From: a virus
Direction: 5' to 3' (one strand)
Virus record (IMG/VR): IMGVR_UViG_3300023180_000063
Span: 1 to 57,646 of that record
DNA length: 57,646 nt
Shown: positions 11,931 to 46,487 of the stretch, in pieces
Position numbering within the stretch: position 1 is the first letter of the stretch
How the letters are laid out: each line of letters begins with the position of its first letter
The notes under the pieces: model-generated
The model's input: the letters and a program-made list of their open reading frames with translations, nothing else
Databases searched by the model: none
What the model was told of the DNA's origin: nothing
Made by a program: the position numbers and the translations under genes

Positions 11931-12680
11931 ATGGCAAGTAAGACCGCTAGCGTCCCAGTGTGGCCAACATCGATCGGCCCCAGAGACGACCTCTACGTTG
12001 TTGTCGATTCTGACGTCGATGACGGAGTATACCTTGTTTTTGCTAGCGAGCAAAAAGGCAGAACGTTCATCAGAGACAACGGCTCGTGGGTTCAAATCGA
12101 TGAAAACTTCTTTGATGAAATTGACGACCCGAAGTACTACACCGAGTATGTGAACGTCGATTTCATCAAATACTTTGACACCAGACAGGTTAAAGGCGAA
12201 CGAGTTCCAGTTCTCAAGGTCGAGGATTTTTCCGATAAGGACGGCGATCCGACCACGGTCACAGCGGCTGTAGAGGACGGTAAGTGCCCTCCGGCAACGT
12301 CTGATATTGCCTTGAATATCAAGAATCGCCAGCGCGCGATCGAGGTTGCTGAATACGGGCCACTCAACCCAGAGCAGCCAAACGATATGTACTGGAAAGA
12401 TATGGCGGATCGCTGGAGTGTCTCTCCAGAAGATGCTAAAAAGAGCCTGTGCGGCAATTGCGTGTTTTTCTACGTAACAACCAGTGTTAAGAACTGTATT
12501 GCTGAAGGTCTTGGCGGCACAGACGGCGCAACCGACCCGTGGGACTCTATCGACGCCGGCGAGCTTGGGTATTGTGAAGCCTTTGACTTCAAATGCGCCT
12601 CTGCTAGAACGTGTGCTGCCTGGGCGACCGGCGGGCCGATTACTGACGATAAGCTACAACAAAAAGGTGTAGAGAAATGA
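11931..12680 (+). CDS. Cys-rich head-module protein, possible metal or Fe-S cluster site
   Basis: A 249-residue protein of unknown function. The N-terminal ~110 residues are acidic and aromatic (DNGSWVQID pattern). The C-terminal third has an ordered cysteine set: CGNC, a further Cys after about 12 residues, then LGYC, then CASARTC, ending AAWATGGP. CxxC...C...GYC resembles small high-potential iron-sulfur-like or zinc-binding folds found near phage head genes; this is a resemblance, not a proven family. The same pattern recurs in the 95-residue protein at 16801. The stop overlaps the start of the protease gene by 4 bases (ATGA), implying translational coupling. Confidence 0.65.
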   Translation: MASKTASVPVWPTSIGPRDDLYVVVDSDVDDGVYLVFASEQKGRTFIRDNGSWVQIDENFFDEIDDPKYYTEYVNVDFIKYFDTRQVKGERVPVLKVEDFSDKDGDPTTVTAAVEDGKCPPATSDIALNIKNRQRAIEVAEYGPLNPEQPNDMYWKDMADRWSVSPEDAKKSLCGNCVFFYVTTSVKNCIAEGLGGTDGATDPWDSIDAGELGYCEAFDFKCASARTCAAWATGGPITDDKLQQKGVEK

Positions 12681-30864: not shown

Positions 30865-31368
30865 TTACGTCTTCTTAGGCTTTCTCTTTTTTGAAGACTC
30901 GGCCTTCTTTTTAGACTTCTCTCGCGCTGAATGATATGCGCTTACAGCGTTTGCGCTTGTTCTACTTCTCCAGGTGAAGTCGCACTCTGTGCAATTTACT
31001 AATCGCATTGTCGGCCAACGTCCGCCTTCAGGTGATGGGCGCACAAGAACTTGAAGCTTGACCGGACGGGCTCCGCAATATGGGCAATTCGGGAATCTTG
31101 TTCGTCGTATTTCCTTGCCCTCGTGAGAAACTGACAACGCTCTTCGTATTTCAGACTCGTCCTTGCCACCCCACACGCCCCAAAGTTCTTTTTCTTCAAG
31201 AGCGTACTTGAGGCAGTCTTTTCTTACGGGACACGAGTAGCAAAGATTCTTAGCGTCGTATCTGTCCCTGAGCTCGGCAGAAAAGAAGTTGGGGGCAAGA
31301 TGCTTATTCTCTGGCTTCTTACACTCTGCGTTGTCTTGCCAGTCGAATCTACTTAGACCGCTAGGCAT
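30865..31368 (-). CDS. WhiB-like transcription regulator with C-terminal zinc ribbon
   Basis: A 167-residue protein. Residues 1-80 are a WhiB domain: Cys16, then C43-x2-C46, then C52, which would hold a 4Fe-4S cluster, followed by the GVWGG turn at 64-68. WhiB proteins bind the primary sigma factor and change host or phage transcription. The extension is unusual: a CxxC pair at 95/98 and another at 126/129 form a probable zinc ribbon, and the C-terminus is strongly basic (lysine/arginine-rich), suited to nucleic-acid binding. The start overlaps the next upstream gene by 8 bases. Confidence 0.9.
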   Translation of the reverse strand: MPSGLSRFDWQDNAECKKPENKHLAPNFFSAELRDRYDAKNLCYSCPVRKDCLKYALEEKELWGVWGGKDESEIRRALSVSHEGKEIRRTRFPNCPYCGARPVKLQVLVRPSPEGGRWPTMRLVNCTECDFTWRSRTSANAVSAYHSAREKSKKKAESSKKRKPKKT

Positions 31369-32372: not shown

Positions 32373-33620
32373 TTAGTCTTCTCGCTGGTAGAAGTTCTTC
32401 TTGACGAAGTTTCTACTAAAGCCCTTGTCAGTGTCGAGAAGGTATTCGCGATCACCAATCAATTCACCCTGTGGACCGTTTGGCTGGCCGTCTAAGGCCG
32501 CTGAGCAGGCCTCTCCGATCCAGTTAGCCGCCTGCACCGCCACTGCCTTGCCCCAAGTCGCGCTCTGCGGGGTGTAGTCCTTCGCGGCGACGATTTCCCA
32601 ATCATCGGGAAGGCCTTGAATTCTTGCCGCCTCCCTGTGAGTGATTCTTCTCGGCTGCGTTGGGTGCACGACGTGATCGAGCGCGCTACCGGTGAGCACG
32701 TGGCAGAAAGATTCAGCGTCCCATCTTGCTGGGAGTGAGAACCCCATGTAGAAGTCATTGGCGCGAATCTTGTCTTCTTTGTTGCTCCAGCTCTGTGGAA
32801 AGTACCCTCCGTTCATCTCGACGGCGAGCTTAAGAGCCTCGTTCATCTGCTTCATCGGCTTCCAACCATCGTTGCCGATGATGTCAAAGATTTCTTGAAT
32901 TCTCTGCGACTCGAGATTTGTCTTGTTCATGTGACCGTCAACAGTACCGTCTTGGTTTCTGAGATCGGCAACGTACTTCGACCCGTCGTTGGAGTACGCC
33001 TGTCGGTCCCACGTGATCTCGCAGTGCTCGAGGTCACCAATTACGTCTATCATTCTAGGCATCTCGCTAGGCGTCTCAGCGTGAGCGCCAAACGGCATGC
33101 CTTTTTCAACAGCAACCCAGAAGTACCGCATGCGATATGAGAATCCGCCGACCTGGAGATTGTTGTGCTTGACGTGATAGAGATCGTACTGCTTGCCTGA
33201 GAGATCCTCTACCATTTGACGATACTGATTCATCATTGGTCGTCCTTGAGTGTACGCTTGCTGCACACATTCAAAGACAATCATCTTCGGCTTGATGCGA
33301 GCTGCGTATCTCATGAACGCGCGAGTATGCTCGTGAGCCTTAGCATCAGGCCCGCGGTTTGCCGGGCCAGACCATAGAGACCATCCAGAGCACGGCGGGC
33401 AGCCGAGAACAATGTCTGCTTCCATATCAGGCCAGTCGCTCGGATCATCGGAGAATGACGAGTTCCACGAGTTGCCGAGATGATGTCTATTCACTTCTGC
33501 AACTGGATTACCGAAGTTCAACGTCCCAGTCCTTGCCAGCATCTCCATTCCGGAGTTTACAAAGCCAAGGCTCATGAAGCCAGCGAGGCCGTTGCAGTCG
33601 ATAAACTTTTTCGTGCTCAT
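32373..33620 (-). CDS. Dcm-like cytosine-C5 DNA methyltransferase
   Basis: A 415-residue protein of a type common in actinophages. Motif IV with the catalytic Cys is GCPPCSGWS (C77), the ENV equivalent is FECV (E117), the QxRxR equivalent is YRMRYFWV (R163, R165), and motifs IX and X are the RRITHREAARIQGLPDDW region (about 340) and WGKAVAVQAANWI. The enzyme should transfer a one-carbon group to cytosine C5 in DNA, though its target site cannot be read from sequence. It sits next to dUTPase-like and glycosyltransferase-like genes and could act on host or phage DNA. Confidence 0.85.
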   Translation of the reverse strand: MSTKKFIDCNGLAGFMSLGFVNSGMEMLARTGTLNFGNPVAEVNRHHLGNSWNSSFSDDPSDWPDMEADIVLGCPPCSGWSLWSGPANRGPDAKAHEHTRAFMRYAARIKPKMIVFECVQQAYTQGRPMMNQYRQMVEDLSGKQYDLYHVKHNNLQVGGFSYRMRYFWVAVEKGMPFGAHAETPSEMPRMIDVIGDLEHCEITWDRQAYSNDGSKYVADLRNQDGTVDGHMNKTNLESQRIQEIFDIIGNDGWKPMKQMNEALKLAVEMNGGYFPQSWSNKEDKIRANDFYMGFSLPARWDAESFCHVLTGSALDHVVHPTQPRRITHREAARIQGLPDDWEIVAAKDYTPQSATWGKAVAVQAANWIGEACSAALDGQPNGPQGELIGDREYLLDTDKGFSRNFVKKNFYQRED

Positions 33621-33621
33621 G

Positions 33622-33930
33622 TCACTCTCCTGAGTCGATCAACCCGACCTCGTAACCGCACGCCGCGTACCCCGCGATGTCCGTCCAGGTGTCTGGTTGA
33701 AATCCGTAGTTGGAAGAAAATCGCGCGAGTTTTACTGCGATCATTGCCATTGCGACATCTTCTTTGCTGAAGTCTCTGTCAAAAATGACTGACCATAGCG
33801 ACGCGATTCTTTGGAAATTGTCTTCCGGTCCGCCGTACTGAAGATCACGCTCTCCAGAGATAATTTTTGCTGCCTCCGAAAGCATCTTCTCTCTTGGAGA
33901 CTCGCTCGTGGTTTCAATCTTTTTTGTCAT
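33622..33930 (-). CDS. DUF6378-like protein
   Basis: A 102-residue protein fitting the small phage family DUF6378: EAAKIISGERDLQYGGPEDNFQRIA at the N-terminus, then DVAMAMIAVKLAR, then DTWTDIAGYAACGYE. The family is common in phage nucleotide-metabolism clusters but has no established reaction. It follows the methyltransferase gene after one base, so the two are likely co-transcribed. Confidence 0.75.
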   Translation of the reverse strand: MTKKIETTSESPREKMLSEAAKIISGERDLQYGGPEDNFQRIASLWSVIFDRDFSKEDVAMAMIAVKLARFSSNYGFQPDTWTDIAGYAACGYEVGLIDSGE

Positions 33931-34130: not shown

Positions 34131-34372
34131 AAAACGCTTACCTTCCGTTCAAGACGATGAGGCGCGTGCCTCGCGTCGTTGATATGTGGTGTCTTTAAGT
34201 CAATAGTGTGTACTCTTACGTCTCCGTCTTTTACTTCTCTTACTCGAACTAGCCGCCCGTTGTGCATTTTTCCAGCAGAAGTCGTGTACGCATCGAGCTT
34301 TACTCGCAGTACGTCACCTTGCTTGATTGTCTGGGCTGAAACATCAACCCACGCGAACTCAGACGACTCCAT
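34127..34372 (-). CDS. Small hypothetical protein
   Basis: An 81-residue basic, probably beta-barrel protein with ISAQTIKQGDVLRVKLDAY-like alternation near its start and an R/H-rich tail. It overlaps neighbours on both sides (14 bases with the dUTPase-like gene, 4 bases with the next), so it is part of one operon. No known family is evident. Confidence 0.55.
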   Translation of the reverse strand: MESSEFAWVDVSAQTIKQGDVLRVKLDAYTTSAGKMHNGRLVRVREVKDGDVRVHTIDLKTPHINDARHAPHRLERKVSVL

Positions 34373-34832
34373 GACGCTGCGGGCACCCGTCTTCCTTACA
34401 CGAGGAGGTGTCGTAGTCGTCTAAGGCACGCGCGCACAGTTTGCACTTCATGCCGTCATCAAGAACTCTGTACCCGGCCTTCTGTCTATTCGCGTTGATT
34501 TGCATCTTTGCGATGTACTCAGAATCAAGATCTTCATCAAGTGCACCAGCGGCGCAGAGAATGTTAGCGACAAAATGAAGAACGTCTACGCATTCCTTGA
34601 GAATCTCGCGGCGATCAGCGTACGGCTCGTCGTGCTGCCAAGGCTTCCAAGAAATCGCCTTGCGAACCTCCGAGAGCTCGTCATCAATAGCAAGCATGTT
34701 CCAGCGGATGTACTCGATAAGCGCTCGAAGATCTTCTGGGCTGTCGCTATGAAACACGGAGTAATCTACACCGTAGACTTCTGATTGAAGCTTCTTTGTC
34801 TTTTCAAGCCACTGATTAAATAGAATGTTCAT
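34359..34832 (-). CDS. All-alpha dUTPase/dCTPase-like pyrophosphatase with zinc-ribbon tail
   Basis: A 157-residue protein. Residues 45-95 carry the metal-binding pattern of the dimeric dUTPase/MazG-like superfamily, which also holds T4 gp56: E52 and E55 (DELSEV), a KxW pair at 63/65, then E76, E80, D83 and H86 (KECVDVLHF). It should hydrolyse dUTP or dCTP to the monophosphate. The C-terminus adds four cysteines (130, 133, 145, 150) that would form a zinc ribbon, an addition I do not know from the T4 enzyme. The gene is next to two glycosyltransferase-like genes. Confidence 0.75.
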   Translation of the reverse strand: MNILFNQWLEKTKKLQSEVYGVDYSVFHSDSPEDLRALIEYIRWNMLAIDDELSEVRKAISWKPWQHDEPYADRREILKECVDVLHFVANILCAAGALDEDLDSEYIAKMQINANRQKAGYRVLDDGMKCKLCARALDDYDTSSCKEDGCPQRHGVV

Positions 34833-35857
34833 TAGAGTGAAAGCTCCTTAAATAGTCTAGATGTCTCTGTCTCTGCGTCTCTAATAGATAGAGAGTATTG
34901 CTCCAGTTGTTCTAATGCTAGAGAGTATCTCTCCGCTATGCTCATCGACTCGACGGCCTGCGGTATGGCAGACCATGACTGCCCGATAGAGATTGTATCT
35001 CGCCATTCTGTACAAACCGGGACTAGAGCTGCTAAAGATTGCACTAATCTGTACGTCCACCACGTAATTGAGTCGTTTTGCGGGCATATGATTGTTCCCG
35101 TGGATCTGCAAATTCTGTCTAGTGACACGGTGTCCGGCTGCATTCTTTTAATTTTGACCGGTTCCCAGTCATATGAAAGAAGATTTTTCATTCTCTCAAA
35201 CCAGCGCGTCTTGTGATTTTCTACAAGCCATAGCTTGCTTTTCTCCGCTGAAATTACTGCGTCAACTTCCTGCCTCGTGTATAGAGCATCGAAGTTGAAC
35301 GGAACCATTCTCAGCGAGTCCTCCCCGAACAACTTTCTTGATACGTGAACGTCGTCTGTGAACGAGAACGCTGGGTACAGCACTCTGTAGTTTTTGTCTG
35401 AATACAGATACTCAGCAGACTCAGCGAGCCTGTCTACAATCTCACTTGAGCCAGAAACTTTAGAGTACTCGTTTCTATTCTTATAGATCGGCTTTTTCAA
35501 CGACTCTGGCGTCTTTACAATCGCGCTCAGACTTTGACGTATCTTTGCCGGGTCAGGAGCGTCAATATAGAAGTGCAGTCGTTGATCGCCCTTTAGCATG
35601 CCGACGACATTAAGAACGCCGTACGCGCAGTGAGAAGCAAGACTTAGAAGAGGAGAAAGACCGACAAGTATCGCATCGTATTCTTCAAAGTCGCTTTGCG
35701 CGTGAGAGACAGACGGCTTTATCCACGAAACACGGACGTCGTCTCCATACATGGTAGCAGCGTCGCTTAGACAGGCGACAAAGCTTAGTGACGATGAATT
35801 GCGCGATCTTGAGTACTGAGATGCTGTCATCCCAGTCACCGCGATGTTTTTCATCAT
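34832..35857 (-). CDS. Putative glycosyltransferase (GT-B-like), second of a pair
   Basis: A 341-residue protein whose N-terminus (MMKNIAVTGMTASQY) and order of alpha/beta elements resemble its upstream neighbour, though it is more diverged. A hydrophobic strand with DAILVGLSPLLSLASH, a central VLYPAFSF region, and a C-terminal SAIPQAVESMSIAERYSLAL helix suit a two-domain Rossmann-type glycosyltransferase. It overlaps the neighbour by 4 bases (ATGA) and shares one base with the dUTPase-like gene. No donor-binding residue can be named with confidence, so the call is structural guesswork supported by context. Confidence 0.5.
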   Translation of the reverse strand: MMKNIAVTGMTASQYSRSRNSSSLSFVACLSDAATMYGDDVRVSWIKPSVSHAQSDFEEYDAILVGLSPLLSLASHCAYGVLNVVGMLKGDQRLHFYIDAPDPAKIRQSLSAIVKTPESLKKPIYKNRNEYSKVSGSSEIVDRLAESAEYLYSDKNYRVLYPAFSFTDDVHVSRKLFGEDSLRMVPFNFDALYTRQEVDAVISAEKSKLWLVENHKTRWFERMKNLLSYDWEPVKIKRMQPDTVSLDRICRSTGTIICPQNDSITWWTYRLVQSLAALVPVCTEWRDTISIGQSWSAIPQAVESMSIAERYSLALEQLEQYSLSIRDAETETSRLFKELSL

Positions 35858-37056
35858 CTACTTCCGTCTGGGTGTATCTTCAAACCTTTGTCTTCGTTGA
35901 TCGCCCTAAGAACAATTCTTTCGCAGTGATCTACAAAAGAATCGTAGCTTGGCATGTACGGGCGAAGAGACTCGGCCTGCGCTCTGGCAGTTTCCTCGAG
36001 CTCAGCGTCGCTCATACTCTCGACTTGTTTGATTGTGATTTTGTACGCGTCACCGATAGGGTCGCCTTCGCCTTTATCTACTACAAGAATAGACCTAACT
36101 CGAGCGGCGTACATAAATCTGCTTCTCCACCAACCGCTGCCAGCGTGTGGATACGGCGGAGACAGAATCCCCCAGTGATTGTTGTAGAACGCTAGAACGT
36201 CTTCTTCCGTGTCAAGACGCTGCCCGCCGAACTTCTTAATAAGCTTTCTGCTTCCGATGATTTCTACCGGCCACTCGGGCTTCTTCTTTTCTAGCCACGT
36301 ATCGTGCGGCATCAGCGCGCCGAGAACCCACGATCTCTGCTTGCTCTCCGGTGGCAGCGGCTCGCTGCTCGCTAGGATGTTATAGATAGTCGAGCTCGGG
36401 TCGAGCGCTTCTATGCCATTCATTTCCTTAGGCATTCGCTTTCTTACGAGCTGCCTATCACCAAACGCGTACATTGGGCACGCCGGAACAAGGCCTGCTG
36501 CCCAGCGCTCAGCGAGCATAGACTCTCCAGCAGCGACAAGTTGGTTTTCGTAAAGCTTGATGTTCTCGTCAGTGTCATTGAAGAAGTACCGCCCAAGACC
36601 GCATTTCGCTGCGTCCTCAGGGTTCTTCGCCGCGACGCGATCAAGTGCTGCCTTCGCGTCATCATACGAGTAGTACGTCGCCGGCTCATCGCCTCTCGGC
36701 CCAGACAATAGATACTTATACAGAAGCTCTGGATGTCGCTTCAACGCTCGTGACGCGTTAAACACTGCGGCGAATTGCCAGTCATCGAAGAATCCAACGG
36801 CGGGCAGACCAGAGGAGAGCGTGTACAGCGCACCCATCGCGCCCTGGCGACCGTTCAGCGAGTTTAGCGGCGCAAGGTTTACCCAGGCGACGTCGTATGA
36901 TGAGAGATCTTCCCCGGGAGTCACTCTTCTCCAGTCGACAGAGTGCCCTCGAGACTCGAGTGCTTCGGCAATAGACGCTGGCACGTCGATCTTCTTGATC
37001 GTTCTACGCTCTGTGTTTATTTGCAGAGCGGTAAAACCTGTCATTAGAATACGCAT
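35854..37056 (-). CDS. Putative glycosyltransferase (GT-B-like)
   Basis: A 400-residue protein. MRILMTGFTALQINTE at the N-terminus and a Rossmann-like alternation (SYDVAWVNLAPLNSL; GLPAVGFFDDWQFAA) suggest an N-terminal GT-B domain. The C-terminal half has WPVEIIGSRKLIKKFGG, then GILSPPYPHAGSGWWRSRF and ARVRSILVVDKGEGD, the layout expected of the donor-binding domain and reminiscent of T4 beta-glucosyltransferase. AAGGA sits 7 bases before the ATG. A role in glycosylating phage DNA is inferred from nearby base-modification genes; a cell-surface target is the main alternative. Confidence 0.6.
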   Translation of the reverse strand: MRILMTGFTALQINTERRTIKKIDVPASIAEALESRGHSVDWRRVTPGEDLSSYDVAWVNLAPLNSLNGRQGAMGALYTLSSGLPAVGFFDDWQFAAVFNASRALKRHPELLYKYLLSGPRGDEPATYYSYDDAKAALDRVAAKNPEDAAKCGLGRYFFNDTDENIKLYENQLVAAGESMLAERWAAGLVPACPMYAFGDRQLVRKRMPKEMNGIEALDPSSTIYNILASSEPLPPESKQRSWVLGALMPHDTWLEKKKPEWPVEIIGSRKLIKKFGGQRLDTEEDVLAFYNNHWGILSPPYPHAGSGWWRSRFMYAARVRSILVVDKGEGDPIGDAYKITIKQVESMSDAELEETARAQAESLRPYMPSYDSFVDHCERIVLRAINEDKGLKIHPDGSR

Positions 37057-37088
37057 TTGTGTCCTTAGAAAAGAAATTGCAGGCTAGC

Positions 37089-37115
37089 CGCCCGCCCCTG
37101 AAGACGGAGCGGGCG
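37089..37115 (-). terminator. GC-rich hairpin terminator candidate after the SSB-like gene
   Basis: On the minus strand CGCCCGCTCC pairs with GGGGCGGGCG (10 base pairs, one G-U) around a 7-base GTCTTCA loop, in the 74-base gap downstream of the SSB-like gene. About 13 bases beyond the stem comes a T-rich tract (AATTTCTTTTCT). This is good, though not perfect, for a factor-independent terminator or attenuator that would lower expression of the downstream glycosyltransferase genes. Confidence 0.55.
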
Positions 37116-37130
37116 ACTCACCTACAGCTA

Positions 37131-37727
37131 TCAGAACGGCGCAGCAGGCGGCGCTGAGGGGGCTGCCTCAGCAGCAGCGGGCGCTGCTTCCGCAACAGGC
37201 GCGGCCTCTGGCGCAGCGACCGGCGCGGCCGGAGCCGGAGCCGGCGCCGTGGGCGGCGCTGGCGCAGCAGCGGGAGGGGCCGCAGCTGCGGCGGGAGGGG
37301 CAGACGCGGCAACGGCGTTCGCCGGATTGGCCGAGTAGTACGCCTTGATCTCGTTCTTCTTCTGGCCCTGCCAAGTGCGGCTGCCAACCTGCCCGCGGAA
37401 CGGGCGATCTACAAGCGCCTGCTCGATCTGAGCGTTGCTCGGGTTGGTTGAGAAGAAGTCACGACCGAGACCGAGAGCTCCCATCTTCCTGAAGAAGATC
37501 GCGAGAGCGTTCGGGTTGTCGGTCGAAACGACGAGATTGTCCCAGACGAGACGCTTCGCGTGGGCGCCAGTCGTAACCTGCGCCTTGACTGCGAACATCG
37601 TCTTTCCAGTCTGAGTCACCTTGGCGTTTGCCTCCACGATCTTGAGATCGTAGTCGCCGTCGGGAAGTGGCTCGTAGCCAACATCCCCTGCTTCGCTGAT
37701 GAGGTCACCCCAGTTGAGGCTAGTCAT
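37131..37727 (-). CDS. DUF669-like phage single-strand DNA-binding protein candidate
   Basis: Starts at the ATG at 37727, since AGGTGA stands 5 bases before it; a GTG 9 bases upstream is the alternative. Residues ~10-125 resemble DUF669/SSB-like phage proteins: YEPLPDGDYDLKIVEA, then GKTMFAVKAQV, RLVWDNLVV, and ALAIFFRKMGALGLG. The last ~65 residues are Ala/Pro low complexity ending in PAAPF, like the disordered tail of SSBs, though without their acidic tip. It is followed by a terminator candidate, and upstream lies a Sak4-like recombinase, so a recombination or replication role fits. Confidence 0.65.
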   Translation of the reverse strand: MTSLNWGDLISEAGDVGYEPLPDGDYDLKIVEANAKVTQTGKTMFAVKAQVTTGAHAKRLVWDNLVVSTDNPNALAIFFRKMGALGLGRDFFSTNPSNAQIEQALVDRPFRGQVGSRTWQGQKKNEIKAYYSANPANAVAASAPPAAAAAPPAAAPAPPTAPAPAPAAPVAAPEAAPVAEAAPAAAEAAPSAPPAAPF

Positions 37728-37761
37728 GTCTATCACCTATCCTTTGGTGTTGTTGTTGTTG

Positions 37762-38511
37762 TTAGCTTTCACTCGGCCGAGGGCCGAAGACAATGTCCAG
37801 CATCGACTCGACGCTGAGATTCTGTTGATCGACGACTTTACCAAGTCGTCCCTGAACACGCTCGCCTGCCTCGTAGTCGCTAGTACGCTCGACGTACATT
37901 TGACGCGCCTTGATTGGCGGCTGCGTTGGGTCAGGATTTGGGAATGTCTCGACGGTAACCGCGCCGAGAATGTCGTAGAAGTACGGTGCCTGAATGGCAA
38001 GCTGCCCCTGGAGGTACGGACGATAGCGACCGTCTTGACCCATTCTTGCCATCGCGGTAAGTACGATCGCCTCCAGAGGCGCGACTGGGTGCATCGTAAG
38101 ATCGCGGAGATCTCGAAGCAGACCGCCCATGTGACGAAGAAGCTCGCCCCACTGTTGCATCTGCATTTGATTCTTTCCAGCAATGCTGTCGACGCACTTT
38201 ACCTGGAGCTCTGAGATCGAGTCGATGATCAGCGACTTGAACTGATGCTTACCGAGCTGCAGCCACTGGTACGCCTTGAGAACAGTGTCGTACTCGGTCA
38301 CGTTGACAACGCACGTGTCCCAGCTTCCATCTGCTACAGGAGGCTCCTCGCGCATCGGGTCCCAGTACTTTACGTTGATCGGGAGGAATCTGTGTCCGCC
38401 CTCCACGTCGAGCATGAGACGCGGGTACGGTGCTGTCACTGCGAATGTCGACTTTCCGACCTTTGACTCGCCGTAGACCATAATGGTCAACGACCGTTGA
38501 ATACCACTCAT
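37762..38511 (-). CDS. Sak4-like RecA-type ATPase
   Basis: A 249-residue protein with a P-loop GESKVGKST at 14-22 and a Walker B-like strand followed by SLIIDSISELQ around 93-103. The length and layout fit Sak4-type phage single-strand annealing/RecA-core ATPases that pair with an SSB-like partner encoded next door, here the neighbouring DUF669/SSB-like gene. A GPRPSES C-terminus closes it. It is 3 bases from the Cas4/RecB-like nuclease gene, so the three genes form a recombination module. Confidence 0.8.
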   Translation of the reverse strand: MSGIQRSLTIMVYGESKVGKSTFAVTAPYPRLMLDVEGGHRFLPINVKYWDPMREEPPVADGSWDTCVVNVTEYDTVLKAYQWLQLGKHQFKSLIIDSISELQVKCVDSIAGKNQMQMQQWGELLRHMGGLLRDLRDLTMHPVAPLEAIVLTAMARMGQDGRYRPYLQGQLAIQAPYFYDILGAVTVETFPNPDPTQPPIKARQMYVERTSDYEAGERVQGRLGKVVDQQNLSVESMLDIVFGPRPSES

Positions 38512-38514
38512 GTG

Positions 38515-39465
38515 TTAGTTACCTTTCGGCTCATTTGTCTGATAATAGCTGTACGGGTCATCTGTAATGAAAAGCTCCTCAAGTGCTTGCTCTGCTGCGC
38601 TACCGTCGTCAAACAGCGGGCACACAGCGAAAAACTGACATTTCCACTTGCAATCTCGGCTGGGGCTCGGGTACGCAACGTAGTGCGGGTCAGAGCCTTC
38701 GTCAAGAGCGTCACGTACTCGAAGCATGTCTTGAATTACTCCGTGTATGCGATTCCAAAAAGTTCTTAGCGTAAACTGATTATGCCGAACCTCTATCTGA
38801 TCGTAGAACGGAGGCTTTGCATTAGCAGTTCTTTTCACCTTCTTGAGCATCGTAAAGATGCCACCGTCGCAGCGCTCGCCATCTTTGTTCTGATACGCTT
38901 CAAGAAGCATGTACGTAAGAATCTGCTCATTCATGTGAGCAAGACTGGCGAACTCTGCAAACGAGCCACCGACTGTCTTGAAGTCTCTAAACAGTCGAAC
39001 ACCGTCCGCCTTTCTGCGGACTCGCATGTCAAGTTTTCCCTGCAACTCGACTCTGCCATCGAAGAGTGGCATGCTGATGATCTCCTCAGTCGAGATCATC
39101 TCTAGTTCTGCGTCAATTCCGTTTTCCTCTACCCACTCGAGGTAGCCCTCAAGCATGATTCTGCCGAGTTCGGCTTCAGTGTCAAGTTCAACTGTGTCCC
39201 TAAACGAGTCAATGAGCGCTTGCTTGTCGATCTCGACGTACTTTGCGTACGACTCAAGAAGCGGTACTCCTTGCGAGTAGTACTCGTCTAGAGCCGCATG
39301 GACCCTGGTGCCGAGCGCCAGTGGGCCAGTGTATTTTTGTGCACGTGGCTGAAGTCTTCTATAGTAGCTTAGCCACCACTTTCTTCTACAGTCTTTAAAC
39401 GTTTGAATCTCGGAGTTGGATATGCGTATTGGCTTGATTTCTACCGGAGTCTCTAGAACTGTCAT
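38515..39465 (-). CDS. Cas4/RecB-like PD-(D/E)XK exonuclease with Fe-S cysteines
   Basis: A 316-residue nuclease of the RecB/Cas4 family. Motifs: QTFKDCRRKWWLSY near 21-34 (C26), H56 (GTRVHAALDEY), D146 (GKLDMRV), D161-x-K163 (RDFKTV), Q181, and C-terminal cysteines C272, C276 and C282 (CKWKCQFFAVC). Four cysteines in this arrangement hold an iron-sulfur cluster in the family. It likely resects DNA ends for the neighbouring Sak4-like ATPase. Its start lies one base from the stop of the SNF2 helicase gene. Confidence 0.85.
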   Translation of the reverse strand: MTVLETPVEIKPIRISNSEIQTFKDCRRKWWLSYYRRLQPRAQKYTGPLALGTRVHAALDEYYSQGVPLLESYAKYVEIDKQALIDSFRDTVELDTEAELGRIMLEGYLEWVEENGIDAELEMISTEEIISMPLFDGRVELQGKLDMRVRRKADGVRLFRDFKTVGGSFAEFASLAHMNEQILTYMLLEAYQNKDGERCDGGIFTMLKKVKRTANAKPPFYDQIEVRHNQFTLRTFWNRIHGVIQDMLRVRDALDEGSDPHYVAYPSPSRDCKWKCQFFAVCPLFDDGSAAEQALEELFITDDPYSYYQTNEPKGN

Positions 39466-39466
39466 G

Positions 39467-41263
39467 TCACTCTCCCTTTAGCATCTTGAGAAGCTTTGCT
39501 TTATCTTGAACGACTTCTTCAAAGTTCTCAGATTTTACGTCCAGCACGTCAATGACTCTCTCCTCAATAGTGCCCTCGGTAACGTAGTCCGTGATCAAAA
39601 TAGAGTCGTGAATCTCTGACCCGATGCGATGAACTCTGTCTAGTGCCTGTTTGTAGTCGACAAGTGACCACGGGCGCTGAAGCATGATAAGCCGCCGAGC
39701 AGCAGTCAACGTCACTCCAACGCCACCCGCCTGCGCGGTGAAGAGAATCCACTTGATTCTTCCTTCTTGGAAATCATCAATTGCCTGCTGACGCTCGTCT
39801 TCGTCCTGTGCGCCTGTGATTAGCCCGTGAGGAATTTTGGCTTTTTCTAGGCGCGCGCTCAGCAGTTCAATTAGCTGCCTAGAAACAGCGCAGACGGCAA
39901 CTGAGTCATCTCCAAAGTCTCCGTTCTGTATATCGTCCATCAACGCGTCGACCTTGCACGATGGCTCAGCGAGCTTTACTTGGATTTCTCCAGTCATTTC
40001 GTCTACGTCTATCTCCGCAAAAGAGCTTGCAAATTGAAGTAGACGAAGTGTCTGTGTCAACGGACTTGGCGCAGTAATAGCATCGCCGTGCTCCAGTTCG
40101 GCGATCATTACTTCCTGCATCTGAGTGTACGCTTTTCGTTGCTTAGCCGACATCTCGACATCGCGTCTGTCCATGATTACGGGCGGGAGCCATGGGAGCA
40201 CGCGCTCTTTAAGCATCCTACGCATCCTCGGGTTGATTGCGGCGTAGAACTCATCGCGCATGTGCGGCTTTACGCCAAGAACCATCATGCCACCAAATGC
40301 GTTGAGCATGATGTCGACCATTCTGTCGATCCACCTAGTCTTGCTCGGCCACTCCTCGGGGGAAATCCAATGCAGAATCGGCCAAAAATCAAGAACGTCA
40401 TTAGCGATTGGAGTGCCAGTCATCGCGAATCTAATGTCGGCCTCGCCAGTCGCAGACCATAGCGCACGCGTCTGCTTGCTCTTTGGGTCCTTCGATCTGT
40501 GGATCTCGTCGGCTACAACCGCCTTGAAATCAATCTGATTTAGCTCACGTTGGTGGACCTCGCAACGAGTCTCACTGACTTTGTCGTCGTGACCCCCGCA
40601 CTCAACGCATCGAGCAAGCGCAACAGACCCGTATGGCGCAAGCCTTGAGTGCGCTCGAAGAGATTCCCAGTTGATCACGTAGACGTCTGCTTCTTCTTCA
40701 AACTGCTTGCGTCTCTGAGCCGCAGACCCGGCGATAACCTGAACGTTTACCTCTGGCCACCAAAGAGAAAACTCGCGTTTCCAAGTTTTCTTGACGGTGT
40801 TCGGGCAAACGATGAGAGCCGGGAATACCTCATCACCGAGATCTTGGATTTTCTTTAATCCTCGAATAGCCTGTGCTGTTTTTCCTAGCCCCGGCTCATC
40901 GGCGAGAAGCGCGCGACGTGCAGCAGCGAGAAACTCGACTCCAGCGCGCTGGTGCGGGAACAGATCTTCATTGTAGCCGTCGCCGTCTGGAAGTGCCTCG
41001 AGCTCACGGAGTGAATTACACGGGTCTACTCGTGACGTGCGCTCATTGACTGCCCAGTCTGTTAGTCTGCTACCGATCTCAAGTTCTTCGCGAAAGACAG
41101 ATCGCAGTGCCAAGCACGAGGCCCAACTTGTAGGAACCTTCCAAACACCATCTTTTGCAGCCCACGACGCGCCGGGGATGCTCTTACATAGCTCTTTGTA
41201 TCGCCACTCAGCATGAATGTGAATTGAGGAGCCGTCTTGACTTAGTTCTACCTGAACTGCCAC
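39467..41263 (-). CDS. SNF2-family DNA helicase/translocase
   Basis: A 598-residue protein. Residues ~1-70 look like the small HARP-like N-terminal domain seen in phage SNF2 enzymes (W-x-Y-K-E-L-C-K ... KVPTSWAS). The helicase core follows: Walker A DEPGLGKT (122-129), DEAH-type VVADEIHRSKD near 265-275, SATGEADIRFAMTGTPIAN, and motif VI QALDRVHRIG near 553. It should translocate on double-stranded DNA and may aid recombination or repair with the adjoining nuclease and Sak4-like ATPase. The gap upstream (41264-41352) has two small hairpins. Confidence 0.85.
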   Translation of the reverse strand: MAVQVELSQDGSSIHIHAEWRYKELCKSIPGASWAAKDGVWKVPTSWASCLALRSVFREELEIGSRLTDWAVNERTSRVDPCNSLRELEALPDGDGYNEDLFPHQRAGVEFLAAARRALLADEPGLGKTAQAIRGLKKIQDLGDEVFPALIVCPNTVKKTWKREFSLWWPEVNVQVIAGSAAQRRKQFEEEADVYVINWESLRAHSRLAPYGSVALARCVECGGHDDKVSETRCEVHQRELNQIDFKAVVADEIHRSKDPKSKQTRALWSATGEADIRFAMTGTPIANDVLDFWPILHWISPEEWPSKTRWIDRMVDIMLNAFGGMMVLGVKPHMRDEFYAAINPRMRRMLKERVLPWLPPVIMDRRDVEMSAKQRKAYTQMQEVMIAELEHGDAITAPSPLTQTLRLLQFASSFAEIDVDEMTGEIQVKLAEPSCKVDALMDDIQNGDFGDDSVAVCAVSRQLIELLSARLEKAKIPHGLITGAQDEDERQQAIDDFQEGRIKWILFTAQAGGVGVTLTAARRLIMLQRPWSLVDYKQALDRVHRIGSEIHDSILITDYVTEGTIEERVIDVLDVKSENFEEVVQDKAKLLKMLKGE

Positions 41264-41294
41264 TAAAAACCTCTTGTCGTCGTTGAGTAATCAT

Positions 41295-41348
41295 CACTGT
41301 ATCACATATTACAGTGCAAAGTATGCACATGTTGAAGTTTTTTCTTCA
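41295..41348 (-). promoter_or_regulatory. Two hairpins in the gap between the resolvase and helicase genes
   Basis: CACTGTA / TACAGTG (41295-41301, 41310-41316) make a perfect 7-bp stem around 8 bases. TGAAG / CTTCA (41333-41337, 41344-41348) make a 5-bp stem around six identical bases, T on the plus strand. The first is directly upstream of the helicase gene on the minus strand, the second just after the resolvase stop. They may act as an attenuator or mark a separate transcription start; the second stem is too short and has its run in the loop, so it is not a good terminator. Confidence 0.35.
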
Positions 41349-41352
41349 GTAT

Positions 41353-41823
41353 CTATTGTAACAAAGCACGAGGCACCCAGCCATCCTTTGTGACTGCCAA
41401 CAAACCGTGACGTATCGCGTCAAGCGCATGGCCGTCTCCACCTTTGTGCCAAAAGTCTAACTTTTTCAGTGCGCTGTTGTCAAACATTCTCTTTGCGTCT
41501 GACGGTGACTGAAACACTATGTCGTCGGGTTCAAGCCCATTTACAAGCATCAAGTGCTTGAGAACTCCGATCTGCTCTAGACTGTACGGCGCTTGAGAGT
41601 TCTTAACAGTCTGCGCGTTGATCGTAAACCTTTCACAAATCACCTTGATCGGTGTCTTAGTGTAATAAGACGCTACAATAGTTTCTATGATCGGCTTATG
41701 ATAGTTTCTGGCGTCGTACTCGCCTGACGCGACTAGCTCTGGCGCTTCTTGATGGTCGTAGCTTATGGCGGCTATACCGCTCATTTTTCCTGGATCGACG
41801 CACAAATAAATTGTCATGTCCAC
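41353..41823 (-). CDS. RuvC-like Holliday junction resolvase / RNase H-fold nuclease
   Basis: A 156-residue protein with the acidic-residue layout of the RuvC/RNase H fold: D10 (CVDPGKMSGIA), E64 (VICERF), and a C-terminal DGHALDAIRHGL (H132, D135, H139). Phage resolvases of this class cut branched DNA before packaging. It overlaps the end of the deaminase gene by 10 bases, so it is part of the same operon. Confidence 0.7.
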   Translation of the reverse strand: MDMTIYLCVDPGKMSGIAAISYDHQEAPELVASGEYDARNYHKPIIETIVASYYTKTPIKVICERFTINAQTVKNSQAPYSLEQIGVLKHLMLVNGLEPDDIVFQSPSDAKRMFDNSALKKLDFWHKGGDGHALDAIRHGLLAVTKDGWVPRALLQ

Positions 41824-42119
41824 ACTACCTTAGATACTCCAGATCTTTTCATCATATTTTCACACTTCTTACAAGGCTTAGACAGCGCAGTCGAGCCGTC
41901 TGCTTGGACTCTGGCTACATAGACTGTTGAACCCGCGGCGTGCGTTCCTGCCGCTACAACAGCCGCAAACTCCGCGTGAAGCGCGAGACGAAACTCCACG
42001 GACGGGTCTCCGACTTTTTTGTTTGTGGCTTTTGAAATGATCTTTCCGTTTTTGACTACAACGCACCCGTGCTTGTGCCTGCACTTGCTGCTGTGAGCGA
42101 GCTCTATCGCTTTTTCCAT
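41814..42119 (-). CDS. Small cytidine/dCMP deaminase-family protein
   Basis: A 101-residue protein from the ATG at 42119, which comes 11 bases after the polymerase stop; a GTG at 42149 inside the polymerase gene would add 10 residues. It has the zinc-dependent deaminase motifs LHAEFAAV (HAE) and PCKKCE (PCxxC). The small size is nearer to tRNA or cytidine deaminases than to dCMP deaminase; the substrate cannot be fixed from sequence. A second deaminase is encoded at 43955, so the two probably differ in substrate. Confidence 0.7.
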   Translation of the reverse strand: MEKAIELAHSSKCRHKHGCVVVKNGKIISKATNKKVGDPSVEFRLALHAEFAAVVAAGTHAAGSTVYVARVQADGSTALSKPCKKCENMMKRSGVSKVVWT

Positions 42120-42130
42120 GTACCTATTCA

Positions 42131-43948
42131 CTAGTACTTGTCGCCCCACGTCTCTAGCGGGCCGTCTACGTCAGCGGTCAGTGGCACATCCCAGCCGTCA
42201 GACGTGGTCATGCATTGCTTCACTATCTGCTTGATCTCGTCTGCGTCTTTTCGTGGCGCCTGTAGAACTATTTCGTCGTGAACCGGGACGATGAGAAGTT
42301 CAGTCAAATCGGCTTGATCGAGTTTGACAAGATTTGCTTTGAAGACCTCTGCCGCTCCACCCTGAATGAGGTAGTTCACAAGCGTGTAAACTCTGTCTTC
42401 GTCGCACGGCAGTCTTCTTCCTGTCCACGTATATACGTAGCCTTGGCCCTCGCTCTGCAACCTTCGCATGCCGGCGTCCTCGATCTGCTTTTGAAAGTAC
42501 GACATGCCCGGAAATCTGCGATCAAATGCATCAGAAACTTGTCGCATCTGTGGCTCAGGAACGCCGGCAGTTACGGCTTGCTTCGCGACACCGGCGCCAT
42601 AGAGTCTTCCGTACACCGTGCCTTTAATCAGCGCGCGGCGCTTATCGGACTTCTGCATCGTCGGATCGTTGTAGATCTCTCTGCCAATCTCCGTGAACGG
42701 GTCAGAGCCAGTTGCGTCCGCCCTGTTGAACAGCGTAATTAGATTTGGATCTTTAGATAGAGACGCGAACATTCTGAACTCAACCTGGTCGAGGTCAGAA
42801 GTGATAATCACGTGGTCATCGTCTTTTGGGATGAACGCTCGGCGAACAACGTCATCGCCTTTCGGCAATGTCTGTAGCGCCGGATTTGTGATCGACATTC
42901 TGCTCGTTCGAGCGCCAAGAGTCTTCACAGACGGGTGAACAATGCCGTCAATTGACTCAGTGAGAAAGTTTAGAAAGTACGTTCCAGCAAGTTTGTCGGC
43001 CTTACGCTGCTTGAGAACAGTGTCCGCGAGATTAGCGACCTCCGCTATCGGGCTCTGTGCTAGCAGCCTCAATTGATCCTTTGTGCAAGACTTCTGACCG
43101 GTCGGAGTAAACTCAGTGATCTCAGCGCCAAGACTCTCAAACAGCCGAACAAGTTGTATGTTGCTCGTTATAGAAGTTCCGTTGTACGTATTCTTAGCCC
43201 AGTTCTTTACAGACTCGGTGTATGAGCTAAGCTCGTTGTACTTTCTCTGCGAGTAGTCAAGATCAACTCGAGCGCCGTTGATCTCCATTCTCGTGACGAT
43301 CTTACGAGTCGCCATCTCGAGCTCATACGGTTTGTGGTACGCGCCGTTAGGTCCGCACTTTTCGTAGAACATTTCCCAGAGACGCATTGTAAGAACGCAG
43401 TCGAGCGCGCCATACGACCAGTACGGCTCAAAGTTTGTGGGAACAGTTCCCCAGGTCCAACCGTTGGCTGATAGCTCTTGATCAAGAGTGTCTTGTAATG
43501 CAACTGCACGCGCGTCGACGTGCAGCGCGGCAAGACGCTTCAGTGCGCCTGAACCAAGCGGGTCGACAATGTGAGCCATAATCATCGTGTCATGCGCGCG
43601 ATGCCATGGCATTTTCCAGCGTGACTGAGTCTCAAACCAGCGTGCCTCGAACGCGATGTTGTGGCAGACGATCGGACCGTCAAAGCGCTCCATCGCCTGG
43701 TAGAACACTCCCGACCATTCGTCCCACGGTATTGACCAGCCCTGCATGCCATCACCGACCTGAACTAGCCGAAGACGTCCGTGCCACGGTGACAGCGCAT
43801 GCTGCCTCGGGTTTCCAGGTATCTCGCCCGTCTCCGTGTCGATCGCGATGGCGTTGTGTGGCCGTCGTTCGCTAAGCCACGAAAGAAAGTCATTCGCAGA
43901 CTCTACGCTGTTGACAAGGTGAAGTTGTACTTGAGAAAGATCAGCCAC
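42131..43948 (-). CDS. polA: DNA polymerase I (family A)
   Basis: A 605-residue replicative polymerase. The N-terminal exonuclease has AIDTETGEI (D37, E39), CHNIAFEARW and YGALDCVLTM. The polymerase domain has motif A SDLDQVEFRMF (about 380), motif B RRALIKGTVYGRLYG, and motif C VPVHDEIVL (about 557). The second exonuclease motif shows Glu where Asp is usual, and the aromatic residue of motif B that discriminates sugars is Tyr, as in T7 polymerase. There is no 5' nuclease domain. The stop overlaps the neighbouring deaminase by a few codons if that gene starts at its GTG. Confidence 0.9.
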   Translation of the reverse strand: MADLSQVQLHLVNSVESANDFLSWLSERRPHNAIAIDTETGEIPGNPRQHALSPWHGRLRLVQVGDGMQGWSIPWDEWSGVFYQAMERFDGPIVCHNIAFEARWFETQSRWKMPWHRAHDTMIMAHIVDPLGSGALKRLAALHVDARAVALQDTLDQELSANGWTWGTVPTNFEPYWSYGALDCVLTMRLWEMFYEKCGPNGAYHKPYELEMATRKIVTRMEINGARVDLDYSQRKYNELSSYTESVKNWAKNTYNGTSITSNIQLVRLFESLGAEITEFTPTGQKSCTKDQLRLLAQSPIAEVANLADTVLKQRKADKLAGTYFLNFLTESIDGIVHPSVKTLGARTSRMSITNPALQTLPKGDDVVRRAFIPKDDDHVIITSDLDQVEFRMFASLSKDPNLITLFNRADATGSDPFTEIGREIYNDPTMQKSDKRRALIKGTVYGRLYGAGVAKQAVTAGVPEPQMRQVSDAFDRRFPGMSYFQKQIEDAGMRRLQSEGQGYVYTWTGRRLPCDEDRVYTLVNYLIQGGAAEVFKANLVKLDQADLTELLIVPVHDEIVLQAPRKDADEIKQIVKQCMTTSDGWDVPLTADVDGPLETWGDKY

Positions 43949-43954
43949 TATACG

Positions 43955-44443
43955 TCACTCCGAGTGCGCGACAAGCGTAACGCTTATTCCACACTTTTTA
44001 ATGTACTCGACGACATCCAACGGATTGCGGTGCATGTCGTGCTCGCCAATATAACATACGACGTGCAACAACCCGGAATTTGTAATTAGCTTTGCGCACT
44101 GCATACACGGCGGACTTGTGATGTATATTGTTCCGCCTTCAACGCTTGATCTGTCTACGTACAGCAGCGCGTTTGCTTCAGCGTGAATTGACGGGCACTG
44201 GTCATAGATGTTGTCTAGTGGTGACTCGCCGCGCGCTCTTGGGCACCAGTCGATACAGTCGCCGCTTTCAGGCCACGACGCCGACGGCCCGTTATAGCCG
44301 GTGGCGCAGACACGCTGGTCTTTTGACACTACAACTGCGCCCATCTGCGCTCTTGAGCACCGTGAGCGCAGCGAAATAACAGTCGCAACGGTGAGCCATG
44401 TCGACTGCCACGATGGCCGCGCGTTAGTCGTCGTCGTCGTCAT
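43955..44443 (-). CDS. dCMP deaminase
   Basis: Deaminates dCMP to dUMP. From the ATG at 44443, which has GGTGA just upstream, the protein has 162 residues; a TTG at 44464 would add 7. The zinc site is SIHAEANALLYV and PPCMQCAKLI, and the early TGYNGP loop with the later SGDC and CPRARGES segments are the layout of T4-like dCMP deaminases, with extra cysteines and histidine for a second zinc. It overlaps the next upstream gene by 20 bases. It would divert dCMP to dUMP, competing with dCMP hydroxymethylation. Confidence 0.8.
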   Translation of the reverse strand: MTTTTTNARPSWQSTWLTVATVISLRSRCSRAQMGAVVVSKDQRVCATGYNGPSASWPESGDCIDWCPRARGESPLDNIYDQCPSIHAEANALLYVDRSSVEGGTIYITSPPCMQCAKLITNSGLLHVVCYIGEHDMHRNPLDVVEYIKKCGISVTLVAHSE

Positions 44444-44636
44444 CGTCACCAAGCTCGCTCTCAATTATTAGAGTCTCTGTGACTCCGTATGAAAGCATTC
44501 TTGCTATCAACTCGAGAGCTTCAGTTCTTGAAAACCCGGCAGACTTCAGCGTGATGTACATCTCGTGCATGCCAATCGCTGCGGCATGCATCGGAGACGC
44601 ATACTCAAAAGCTTCTTCGTTTTCATCACTAGGCAT
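44424..44636 (-). CDS. Small hypothetical protein with acidic tail
   Basis: A 70-residue protein with an amphipathic helix HAAAIGMHEMYITLKSAGFSRTEALELIARM and a C-terminal run of seven aspartates. Short helix-plus-acidic-tail proteins of this kind recur in actinophage nucleotide-metabolism clusters, but no function is known to me. It overlaps the ThyA-family gene by 8 bases and the dCMP deaminase by 20, so it is translated in the same operon. Confidence 0.6.
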   Translation of the reverse strand: MPSDENEEAFEYASPMHAAAIGMHEMYITLKSAGFSRTEALELIARMLSYGVTETLIIESELGDDDDDDD

Positions 44637-45501
44637 TTCCGAGTTTGGCCTCGTTGCTCTCGATAGCGGAGCGCATTGCGTTAACGTACCAGAGCTCTGT
44701 ATCGTTTAGCTCCGGTACGTGCAAAGCTTCGGGGTCAACGGCGAGAAGACAGTTCTGCGCAGATAGTGCGACGTCTGCCCACGAGTTGCCAGCAAAATAC
44801 GGAATTGGGTCGACAGGGGCGCTCGTCTTACGCAACTTAGTCACCGCATCTATATTTGACTCGTAGATGTGAAGCGACCCAACGTGATGCGCATACGTGC
44901 CTGGCTCTATTCCAAGTATCGAGCAGATCGCTAACTGCACCCGCGTGAACTGGAAAAAGTCGTACGCTGCACCAAGCCACACGTCGTTTGAGCGCATGTA
45001 GACACTCATATTTAGTTTGCCGTCACGAACTCTAAACTGATGAAGAACTGTGCATGGGTAGTCACGCTTCTGTGGCATGTTGTCAAACTCAGGGTTCCAG
45101 ATCGTCACGACTGCTTGCCGCGTGTCTGGGTCACTCTTGATTTTGTCTACAACGTGAGCGTACTGGCCATTTGTACGTAGACCGTACGCTCCGTGAAATT
45201 CTCCGTTGTTCTCAGCGTAATTCGTAAACTGCGGACCTATAGCAATCACTGTCCGTGGCGTGCTCCTACCGGCGACGAGTTGGCACGCCTCAACGGCGCC
45301 AATGCCCGGGACGACACCTCGACCAACGCCCATCGGCATTGCGTCGTACACGTTGTCTATGAATACAGTTGCGTCTTCAATTTCTCTTGTCTTCACACCG
45401 CGTGGGGACACCTCGCGGCCGTGCTCAAGCACGTGATGAACAAGATCAACGTAGCCGTTTACTCCGTCTTCGATGTGAATTGCTGTCAGCGAAGAACCCA
45501 T
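44629..45501 (-). CDS. ThyA-family nucleotide C1 transferase, probable dCMP hydroxymethylase
   Basis: A 290-residue member of the thymidylate synthase family, about the size of T4 dCMP hydroxymethylase. Active-site residues are in register with E. coli ThyA: catalytic C150 (DYPCTV; C146), R170 and D173 (MRSNDVWLG; R166, D169), H211 and Y213 (LHIY; H207, Y209). The residue that reads the pyrimidine, N177 in E. coli, is D181 here, 31 residues after the catalytic Cys, exactly as C148 and D179 in T4 dCMP hydroxymethylase. Asn to Asp at this place is the known switch from dUMP to dCMP. The product would be 5-hydroxymethyl-dCMP. It overlaps the kinase fusion by 16 bases. Confidence 0.75.
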   Translation of the reverse strand: MGSSLTAIHIEDGVNGYVDLVHHVLEHGREVSPRGVKTREIEDATVFIDNVYDAMPMGVGRGVVPGIGAVEACQLVAGRSTPRTVIAIGPQFTNYAENNGEFHGAYGLRTNGQYAHVVDKIKSDPDTRQAVVTIWNPEFDNMPQKRDYPCTVLHQFRVRDGKLNMSVYMRSNDVWLGAAYDFFQFTRVQLAICSILGIEPGTYAHHVGSLHIYESNIDAVTKLRKTSAPVDPIPYFAGNSWADVALSAQNCLLAVDPEALHVPELNDTELWYVNAMRSAIESNEAKLGNA

Positions 45502-46487
45502 GACGCATACTCCTGTGTGTTTCCGTTTGCGAAGCTATCAATTGCGCGACCATACTCTGTTTGATCAGAGTAGTGAAATCGTCTAACATGTTGAGGATGC
45601 GGAAGAACTGTGTATAGACTTTCGTAGAGTGAGCATTGACGAAGACGCTTTTCTGCCATGCGACCAAGGGCTATAACTTTTGGCCGATTAAGAGCTTCAT
45701 ATAGTCGTATGATGTCTTCTCCATAGACATCGGCAGAATTTATGATTCCGTAGTCGCGCCAGGTTTCGCACGGTAGGGCGTTCAACAAATAGTCTGCTGA
45801 ATTTGCACCGGAAGGCTTGAAAGGCAACATCGTGTCAGTCTCGTCGTTTCTTTCGTCACCGACGAGAAGCGCCTTTGGCTTTGGAGGTCCGATGTACCAA
45901 GTAAATCTTTCTAGATGCTGAACTTCAGATTGCAATGTCTTAGCGTAGCTGATGACGTCACGCGCCAGGTTTGCTACTTGATCTAATCCGCCGTTTGACG
46001 GCTGCAACTTAATGCACGACATGGTGTTGTCGAACGCATAAGAGTAGAGACTTAAAATATGCTCGAGCTCATGCTCTTCTACAAAGTCGTCTCCGCGTTC
46101 TCTAATTCTTTGCTGAATAATCTCAAGCGGCTGATACAGCCAAAACTGAGTAATGCCGCGAGCGCGAAGAAACATCTCGGTCCATCGCCAGCCAGCAACG
46201 CCAAGTAGACCAAAGCCGTCAATGTTAGTATGACGACGCTTGATCGGAGCATACGTTACCTCACCCCAATGCCATCGATCAGCGACTGCTGTCGCTGAGA
46301 ACCAGTTGAAGTCTTGAATGTCTTCTACGTACTCTGAAAGTACGCCTTTGCGAGTGAACTCTTTCGGCGCGCCCTTGTGGTACTGAATCGCGCCGGCAGT
46401 TGACCGCTGCCCGGTGAGTTCAGAGACAACAGCGTCTACAAGAGTAGACTTTCCCGAGGCGTCAGTGCCTTCGATGACGATAAACAT
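45486..46487 (-). CDS. Deoxynucleotide monophosphate kinase fused to a uracil-DNA-glycosylase-like domain
   Basis: A 333-residue protein. Residues ~1-205 are a thymidylate-kinase-like P-loop kinase (GTDASGKST at 6-14, ATAVADRWHWGE, RERGDDFVEEHE). Residues ~210-333 have the pattern of a UDG-like glycosylase: a KALLVGDERND loop, LPFKPSGANSADYLL, IINSADVYG, then KVIALGRMA, and the final LPHPQHVRRF loop. A kinase would phosphorylate (hydroxymethyl-)dCMP or dTMP, as T4 gp1 does. The role of the glycosylase part is unknown. GGAGGG precedes the ATG, and the gene overlaps the ThyA-like gene, so the two enzymes are linked. Confidence 0.7.
   Translation of the reverse strand: MFIVIEGTDASGKSTLVDAVVSELTGQRSTAGAIQYHKGAPKEFTRKGVLSEYVEDIQDFNWFSATAVADRWHWGEVTYAPIKRRHTNIDGFGLLGVAGWRWTEMFLRARGITQFWLYQPLEIIQQRIRERGDDFVEEHELEHILSLYSYAFDNTMSCIKLQPSNGGLDQVANLARDVISYAKTLQSEVQHLERFTWYIGPPKPKALLVGDERNDETDTMLPFKPSGANSADYLLNALPCETWRDYGIINSADVYGEDIIRLYEALNRPKVIALGRMAEKRLRQCSLYESLYTVLPHPQHVRRFHYSDQTEYGRAIDSFANGNTQEYASWVLR

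Follow-up and report, generated by a model that had tools for sequence, protein, structure and literature searches.

A probable pathway for sugar-decorated hydroxymethylcytosine in the DNA of an uncultured actinobacterial virus

We analysed one IMG/VR virus record (IMGVR_UViG_3300023180_000063), a window of 57,646 bases from an uncultured virus of actinobacteria, and found a set of genes with which the virus very probably remakes cytosine as hydroxymethylcytosine (hmC) carrying sugars, in order to evade host defences. We put the probability that the block is a cytosine-hypermodification pathway, in which hmC is made and then decorated with sugar, at roughly four in five. Its key members are a homologue of the thymidylate synthase (TS) ThyA and two glycosyltransferases (GTs), here called GT1 and GT2; from homology, catalytic residues, fold, synteny and co-inheritance we infer the substrates, the products, the order of the steps and the role in counter-defence.

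The ThyA homologue was aligned with Escherichia coli TS, T4 gp42, SPO1 gp29 and their homologues. Its catalytic core is complete (C150, E71, Y106 and R170 are kept), and Asp181, which the initial annotation had placed at the pyrimidine-reading position, does align with Asn177 of E. coli TS; aspartate also occupies this position in T4 gp42, and asparagine in TS and in the SPO1 dUMP enzyme. The reader aspartate is invariant in all 33 distinct environmental homologues. As in T4 gp42, the His147 of TS is replaced by threonine (T151, giving CT for CH), the MRSND motif is present and the alignment shows no TS-type C-terminal tail. The solved structures nearest to it include MilA (5b6d; E 5.6e-20), a hydroxymethylase acting on CMP in antibiotic synthesis, which shares the CT and MRxND motifs and the reader-position aspartate, although the homology is only remote. 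The product of the window enzyme, judged from these residues, is most likely hydroxymethyl-dCMP.

These residues also led us to reject an ordinary TS: D181 stands for Asn177, T151 for His147, and the TS-type tail is missing. The corresponding explanation of the block, that a TS, a dUTPase and a dCMP deaminase together raise dTMP while the GTs are unrelated, would suit the single TS-family gene per genome, the lack of ThyX in most of these genomes and the GenBank annotation as thymidylate synthase. We nevertheless regard it as highly unlikely, since every homologue has aspartate in place of Asn177, a T4-gp42 type of enzyme replaces the same slot in Micrococcus phage Kurnik (see below), and Gordonia phage GMA2 carries a separate ThyX, which makes its ThyA homologue dispensable for dTMP.

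A second aspartate bears on the chemistry. The folate-binding Asp169 of E. coli TS, which we take to be Asp221 in Lactobacillus casei numbering, corresponds to D173 in the window enzyme and is kept in 33 of 33 distinct environmental homologues; among more distantly related viral contigs bearing GT1, all eight that have a TS-family gene likewise show both the aspartate variant and the folate aspartate. By contrast, it is changed to asparagine in the enzymes of RB69, Acj61, Serratia 92A1 and Rhizobium AF3, which form a clade of their own; RB69ORF048c we infer to be the RB69 5-hydroxy-dCMP synthase. The RB69-type synthase is a TS-superfamily enzyme making the precursor of arabinosyl-5-hydroxycytosine, in a pathway where a serial pair of sugar transferases is known (PMC13390438). 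A similar route in the window, with the ThyA homologue making 5-hydroxy-dCMP and the GTs linking sugars such as arabinose directly to cytosine O5, would account for the shared reader aspartate and for two GTs in series, and Providencia phage PSTRCR_121 does pair a GT1 relative with an RB69-type enzyme and with SIS and nucleotidyltransferase (NTP-transferase) genes. We consider this route improbable, because the window enzyme and all the module homologues retain the folate aspartate and lie outside the RB69 clade, on which grounds an RB69-type identity was rejected, and because no SIS or NTP-transferase sugar genes were seen near the window GTs. Retention of the folate aspartate, unlike in the RB69-type synthases, argues instead for folate-dependent hydroxymethylation by the ThyA homologue. 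In Rhizobium phage AF3 (L193), we also observed an RB69-type synthase together with a UDP-galactopyranose mutase (UGM; match H267), which may mark furanosylated 5-hydroxycytosine in that phage.

The initial annotation had described a block from 34359 to 46487; both positions are exact ends of open reading frames (ORFs), and each gene that it named is an intact minus-strand ORF. The features, with their Pfam, PHROG or structural matches, are as follows.

45486 to 46487, minus strand: P-loop nucleotide kinase, C-terminal extension conserved (phrog_761 'thymidylate kinase', 5.6e-14; PDB YorR, 1.7e-9, family profile)
44629 to 45501, minus strand: ThyA-family enzyme, predicted dCMP hydroxymethylase (Pfam PF00303 Thymidylat_synt, 4.1e-27; alignments, tree)
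43955 to 44464, minus strand: dCMP deaminase, an ordinary phage nucleotide enzyme (PF00383, 2.6e-17; phrog_174, 1.7e-40)
42131 to 43948, minus strand: DNA polymerase A (PF00476, 2.1e-54)
41814 to 42149, minus strand: second, short cytidine/dCMP-deaminase-like gene, missing from some relatives (PF00383, 1.6e-13)
35854 to 37056, minus strand: GT1, GT-B-fold glycosyltransferase by structure prediction, conserved (AlphaFold2 pLDDT 83.1; Foldseek T4 beta-glucosyltransferase, E 3.8e-6; paralogue of GT2)
34832 to 35857, minus strand: GT2, hypervariable paralogue of GT1 (AlphaFold2 pLDDT 90.7; Foldseek phage HY126 GT 9iqz; divergence)
34359 to 34832, minus strand: dUTPase_2/gp56-family pyrophosphatase, putative dCTPase/dUTPase (PF08761, 2.6e-11; hhalign to T4 gp56)
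33622 to 33930, minus strand: DUF6378 protein, syntenic in the block (PF19905, 1.4e-26)
32373 to 33620, minus strand: C5-cytosine DNA methyltransferase (C5-MTase) homologue, motifs intact, conserved in the block (PF00145, 8.1e-23; motif alignment)
30865 to 31368, minus strand: WhiB-family regulator, marker of an actinobacterial host (PF02467, 2.4e-16)

In the order of transcription, the kinase-like gene, the ThyA homologue, the dCMP deaminase, DNA polymerase A and the short deaminase are followed by RuvC-like, SNF2 helicase, PD-(D/E)XK nuclease, RecA-like and DUF669/SSB-like genes, then by GT1, GT2 and the pyrophosphatase, and finally by DUF6378, the C5-MTase, a DenV-like gene and WhiB. The C5-MTase, which the initial annotation omitted, belongs with these genes in the conserved block.

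Dozens of other viral contigs, as well as GenBank phages, keep the entire block in collinear order, and the gene set is therefore not a product of chance. Actinomycetia phage DSL-LC01 and the Gordonia phages Sixama, GMA2 and GodonK share it, including GT1, GT2, WhiB and the C5-MTase; their TS, GT1 and GT2 proteins are 23-59% identical to those of the window, and the Gordonia phages have extra GTs. The WhiB gene reported for the window is present, but the block is not new to WhiB-bearing phages, as had been supposed, because these four already carry the two together. In the isolated Micrococcus phage Kurnik (OR756649), the genes from TS to the MTase (the latter 34% identical) follow one another as in the window, but the TS slot is taken by a homologue of T4 gp42 (51% identity across 208 residues) that is annotated only as thymidylate synthase (L237, L240). 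No other single observation argues as strongly as this exchange for dCMP hydroxymethylation as the function of the slot. The Kurnik module, which differs from that of the window in this gp42 homologue and in an alternative type of GT cassette, has not been described as such; hydroxymethylation is not mentioned in the paper on DSL-LC01 (PMC10611076), and our literature search found no readable paper on DNA modification in Gordonia phages and none recognising the pathway.

Neither GT has a Pfam family, and Pfam, PHROGs and PDB sequence profiles were uninformative as to their identity; for this reason we built AlphaFold2 models from locus alignments and searched them against the PDB with Foldseek. 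Both folds were confident (pLDDT 83.1 for GT1 and 90.7 for GT2). The top match of GT1 is the T4 beta-glucosyltransferase (BGT; E 3.8e-6), with the alpha-glucosyltransferase (AGT) lower in the list, while GT2 matches a plant UGT and, with a probability of 1.00, the phage HY126 glycosyltransferase 9iqz. The two proteins are full-length paralogues (99.1%, E 6.9e-19), and a GT1 match of about 1.4 kb in some loci, considered as a possible insertion, looks instead like the alignment continuing into GT2. The models thus support the assignment of both as putative GT-B enzymes of the DNA-modification type, as the earlier description of two glycosyltransferase-like genes had suggested. No window protein matched the T4 AGT (PF11440) or BGT (PF09198) models, for which the T4 control was positive, and a search of genome contigs confirmed no bacterial relatives of GT1.

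The company kept by GT1 points in the same direction. GT1-family genes co-occur with three types of maker of C5-hydroxymethylcytosine: the Asp-type ThyA homologue, the T4-type gp42 (in Aeromonas phage 25 and Erwinia FBB1) and the TET/JBP oxygenase (in phage C48C1). Aeromonas phage 25 and FBB1 have gp42 but neither AGT nor BGT in a family-model search, and GT1 is therefore the candidate for glycosylating hmC in these two phages. All the GenBank phage records bearing GT2 carry GT1 too, whereas GT1 is found without GT2 in others, so GT2 probably acts on the product of GT1. In C48C1, the GT1-family gene stands directly beside the oxygenase, but a TET route to hmC was rejected for the window, since no Tet_JBP was found in the window (a record that may be incomplete), the Gordonia phages, DSL-LC01 or seven related viral records; here, hmC would arise at the level of the mononucleotide.

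The supporting genes fit such a scheme to different degrees. The pyrophosphatase family is homologous to the T4 gp56 dCTPase (hhalign, 97.8% probability, E 1.1e-12), in agreement with the dUTPase/dCTPase-like gene first proposed, and has the DDE..E and E..D.HF motifs, with dCTP and dUTP as putative substrates. The gene described as dNMP kinase-like is indeed a P-loop kinase, but kinship with T4 gp1 did not emerge, as the profile matches YorR and thymidylate kinases in the PDB, with the T4 dNMP kinase not among the matches. The C-terminal third of this kinase is conserved (LPFxP ... HPQxVRRF) and reminiscent of UDG-fold proteins, an idea that we dropped because the Pfam match was only at E 0.24 and a scan of 26 family members at E 0.01 did not reproduce it. 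The dCMP deaminase, although present as reported, is widespread in phages and not specific to the pathway. The C5-MTase belongs to the module: the actinophage lineages that we examined keep it in place, with its motifs intact.

Taken together, these genes would act as follows. The pyrophosphatase would turn dCTP (and dUTP) into monophosphates, keeping plain cytosine out of phage DNA and supplying dCMP, which the ThyA-like enzyme would hydroxymethylate at C5 using methylene-tetrahydrofolate, with Asp181 reading the cytosine. The phage kinase and host enzymes would convert the hydroxymethyl-dCMP to hydroxymethyl-dCTP for incorporation by the phage PolA. After replication, the BGT-like GT-B enzyme GT1 would add a first sugar to the hydroxymethyl group, and the fast-evolving paralogue GT2 would extend or alter it, giving a product that should block restriction and guided nucleases. 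The pathway can be called T4-like, as first proposed, in its manner of working, with a predicted Asp-type folate-dependent dCMP hydroxymethylase, a gp56-homologous putative d(C/U)TPase and GT-B enzymes, of which GT1 has BGT as its top fold match. The likeness does not extend to membership in the T4 families: the ThyA homologue clusters apart from gp42, and the GTs, mutually paralogous, lie outside the AGT and BGT families. The block also includes a C5-MTase, and we found no evidence specific to glucose.

Several observations weigh against this reading. In a maximum-likelihood tree with some long branches and unsure deep joins, the ThyA homologue falls in a clade separate from that of T4 gp42; GT1 reaches only modest TM-scores with BGT (0.49/0.55); a likeness of the kinase to gp1 is not demonstrable; and the GT1 relative beside an RB69-type synthase in PSTRCR_121 means that GT1 alone is no proof of hmC. 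An intact C5-MTase homologue would, moreover, have no substrate on fully hydroxymethylated cytosine, and its conservation suggests that replacement may be partial or that the MTase acts elsewhere. Finally, the Asn-to-Asp change fixes specificity for dCMP rather than the choice between hydroxymethyl and methyl, and is by itself equally compatible with a dCMP methylase, such as that of phage Xp12. If the ThyA homologue were such an enzyme, the DNA would contain 5-methylcytosine, in keeping with the C5-MTase nearby, and the GTs would act elsewhere, for example on cell-wall or teichoic glycans. This appears very improbable to us, as the MRSND and CT motifs and the absent tail fit hydroxymethylases, Kurnik has the T4-gp42 homologue in the same slot, relatives of GT1 stand beside TET and together with gp42, and the top fold match of GT1 is a DNA glucosyltransferase.

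With hydroxymethylation preferred, there is the question of which sugar is added. A GT1-family gene has UGM as its immediate neighbour in Aeromonas phage 25, in Erwinia FBB1, in several environmental loci of actinophage type (L196-L200, L205 and L207) and in DSL-LC01, where UGM separates GT1 from GT2; phage C48C1 has the order Tet_JBP, GT1, UGM. UGM was found in 86 of 50,697 phage records, against 24 of the 42 with a GT1 homologue (sequence search, matched by organism), counts that are not independent because the records with both genes represent about three or four lineages. This pairing, a new observation that recurs across several lineages and extends to a TET-bearing phage, makes a furanose donor for GT1 a testable idea, and the neighbourhood evidence would seem to favour a furanose at least as much as glucose, which is not implied. 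UGM is absent from the window and from the Gordonia phages, in a search for which the genome of Corynebacterium glutamicum was the positive control. Gordonia-type hosts make UDP-galactofuranose (UDP-Galf) for arabinogalactan and C. glutamicum has UGM, so that the phage could borrow the donor of its host. Against a furanose, the GT1 relatives of Providencia and Morganella sit with SIS/arabinose-5-phosphate-isomerase-type genes, which implies that sugar donors vary within the family. We therefore propose only tentatively that the GT1 family comprises widespread DNA furanosyltransferases, and that GT1 here may add a furanose to 5-hydroxymethylcytosine, which GT2 may cap with a further sugar, one that host nucleases able to read DNA sugars would drive to change. 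The furanose would most simply be galactofuranose, drawn from the host cell-wall pool of UDP-Galf or made by a phage UGM where the hosts of the relatives lack it.

GT2 is only 29-38% identical between the window and its relatives, compared with 55-88% for most other genes of the block, and where pairwise GT1 identity is 80-90%, the mean identity is 60% for GT2 (range 28-82%) but 82% for the pyrophosphatase. GT2 is thus hypervariable, which is new here, as is the exchange of the GT pair as a cassette in one sublineage. At 12 loci (e.g. L091, L130, L134, L137, L152 and L154), a different GT-B-like protein of 412 amino acids, of which Kurnik carries a relative, stands in place of GT1, and the loci that reach far enough continue with APH-like kinase and HAD-like genes. 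These form an alternative sugar cassette (GT-B-like protein, APH-like kinase and HAD-like phosphatase) in place of GT1 and GT2, lying at 18145-20662 in L091 and syntenic in L128, L130, L133, L134, L137, L140 and L152. Beyond WhiB, at about 16768-19347 in L058 and L060, there are hexapeptide acyltransferase-, DegT-like aminotransferase- and GFO/IDH-like genes that by eye resemble a nucleotide-sugar pathway.

Elsewhere in the window, we noted two unusual long ORFs. A giant one of 3871 amino acids (34-11649) combines exonuclease-, helicase- and NUDIX-like regions and looks polyprotein-like, and another of 1375 amino acids (12677-16804) has PHROG matches of portal and head-maturation-protease type on one chain.

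If the proposed pathway is correct, cytosine hypermodification would extend to a large group of actinobacterial phages, most of them uncultured; isolates already in collections, namely the Gordonia phages GMA2, Sixama and GodonK and the Micrococcus phage Kurnik, carry the module. The folate aspartate offers a checkable idea, as the residue that may separate makers of hydroxymethylcytosine from makers of hydroxycytosine. Phage papers now read UGM as a gene of cell-wall metabolism (DSL-LC01, PMC10611076; Atu_ph04, PMC6630229); were the furanose proposal true, UGM would instead be a marker of furanosylated DNA.

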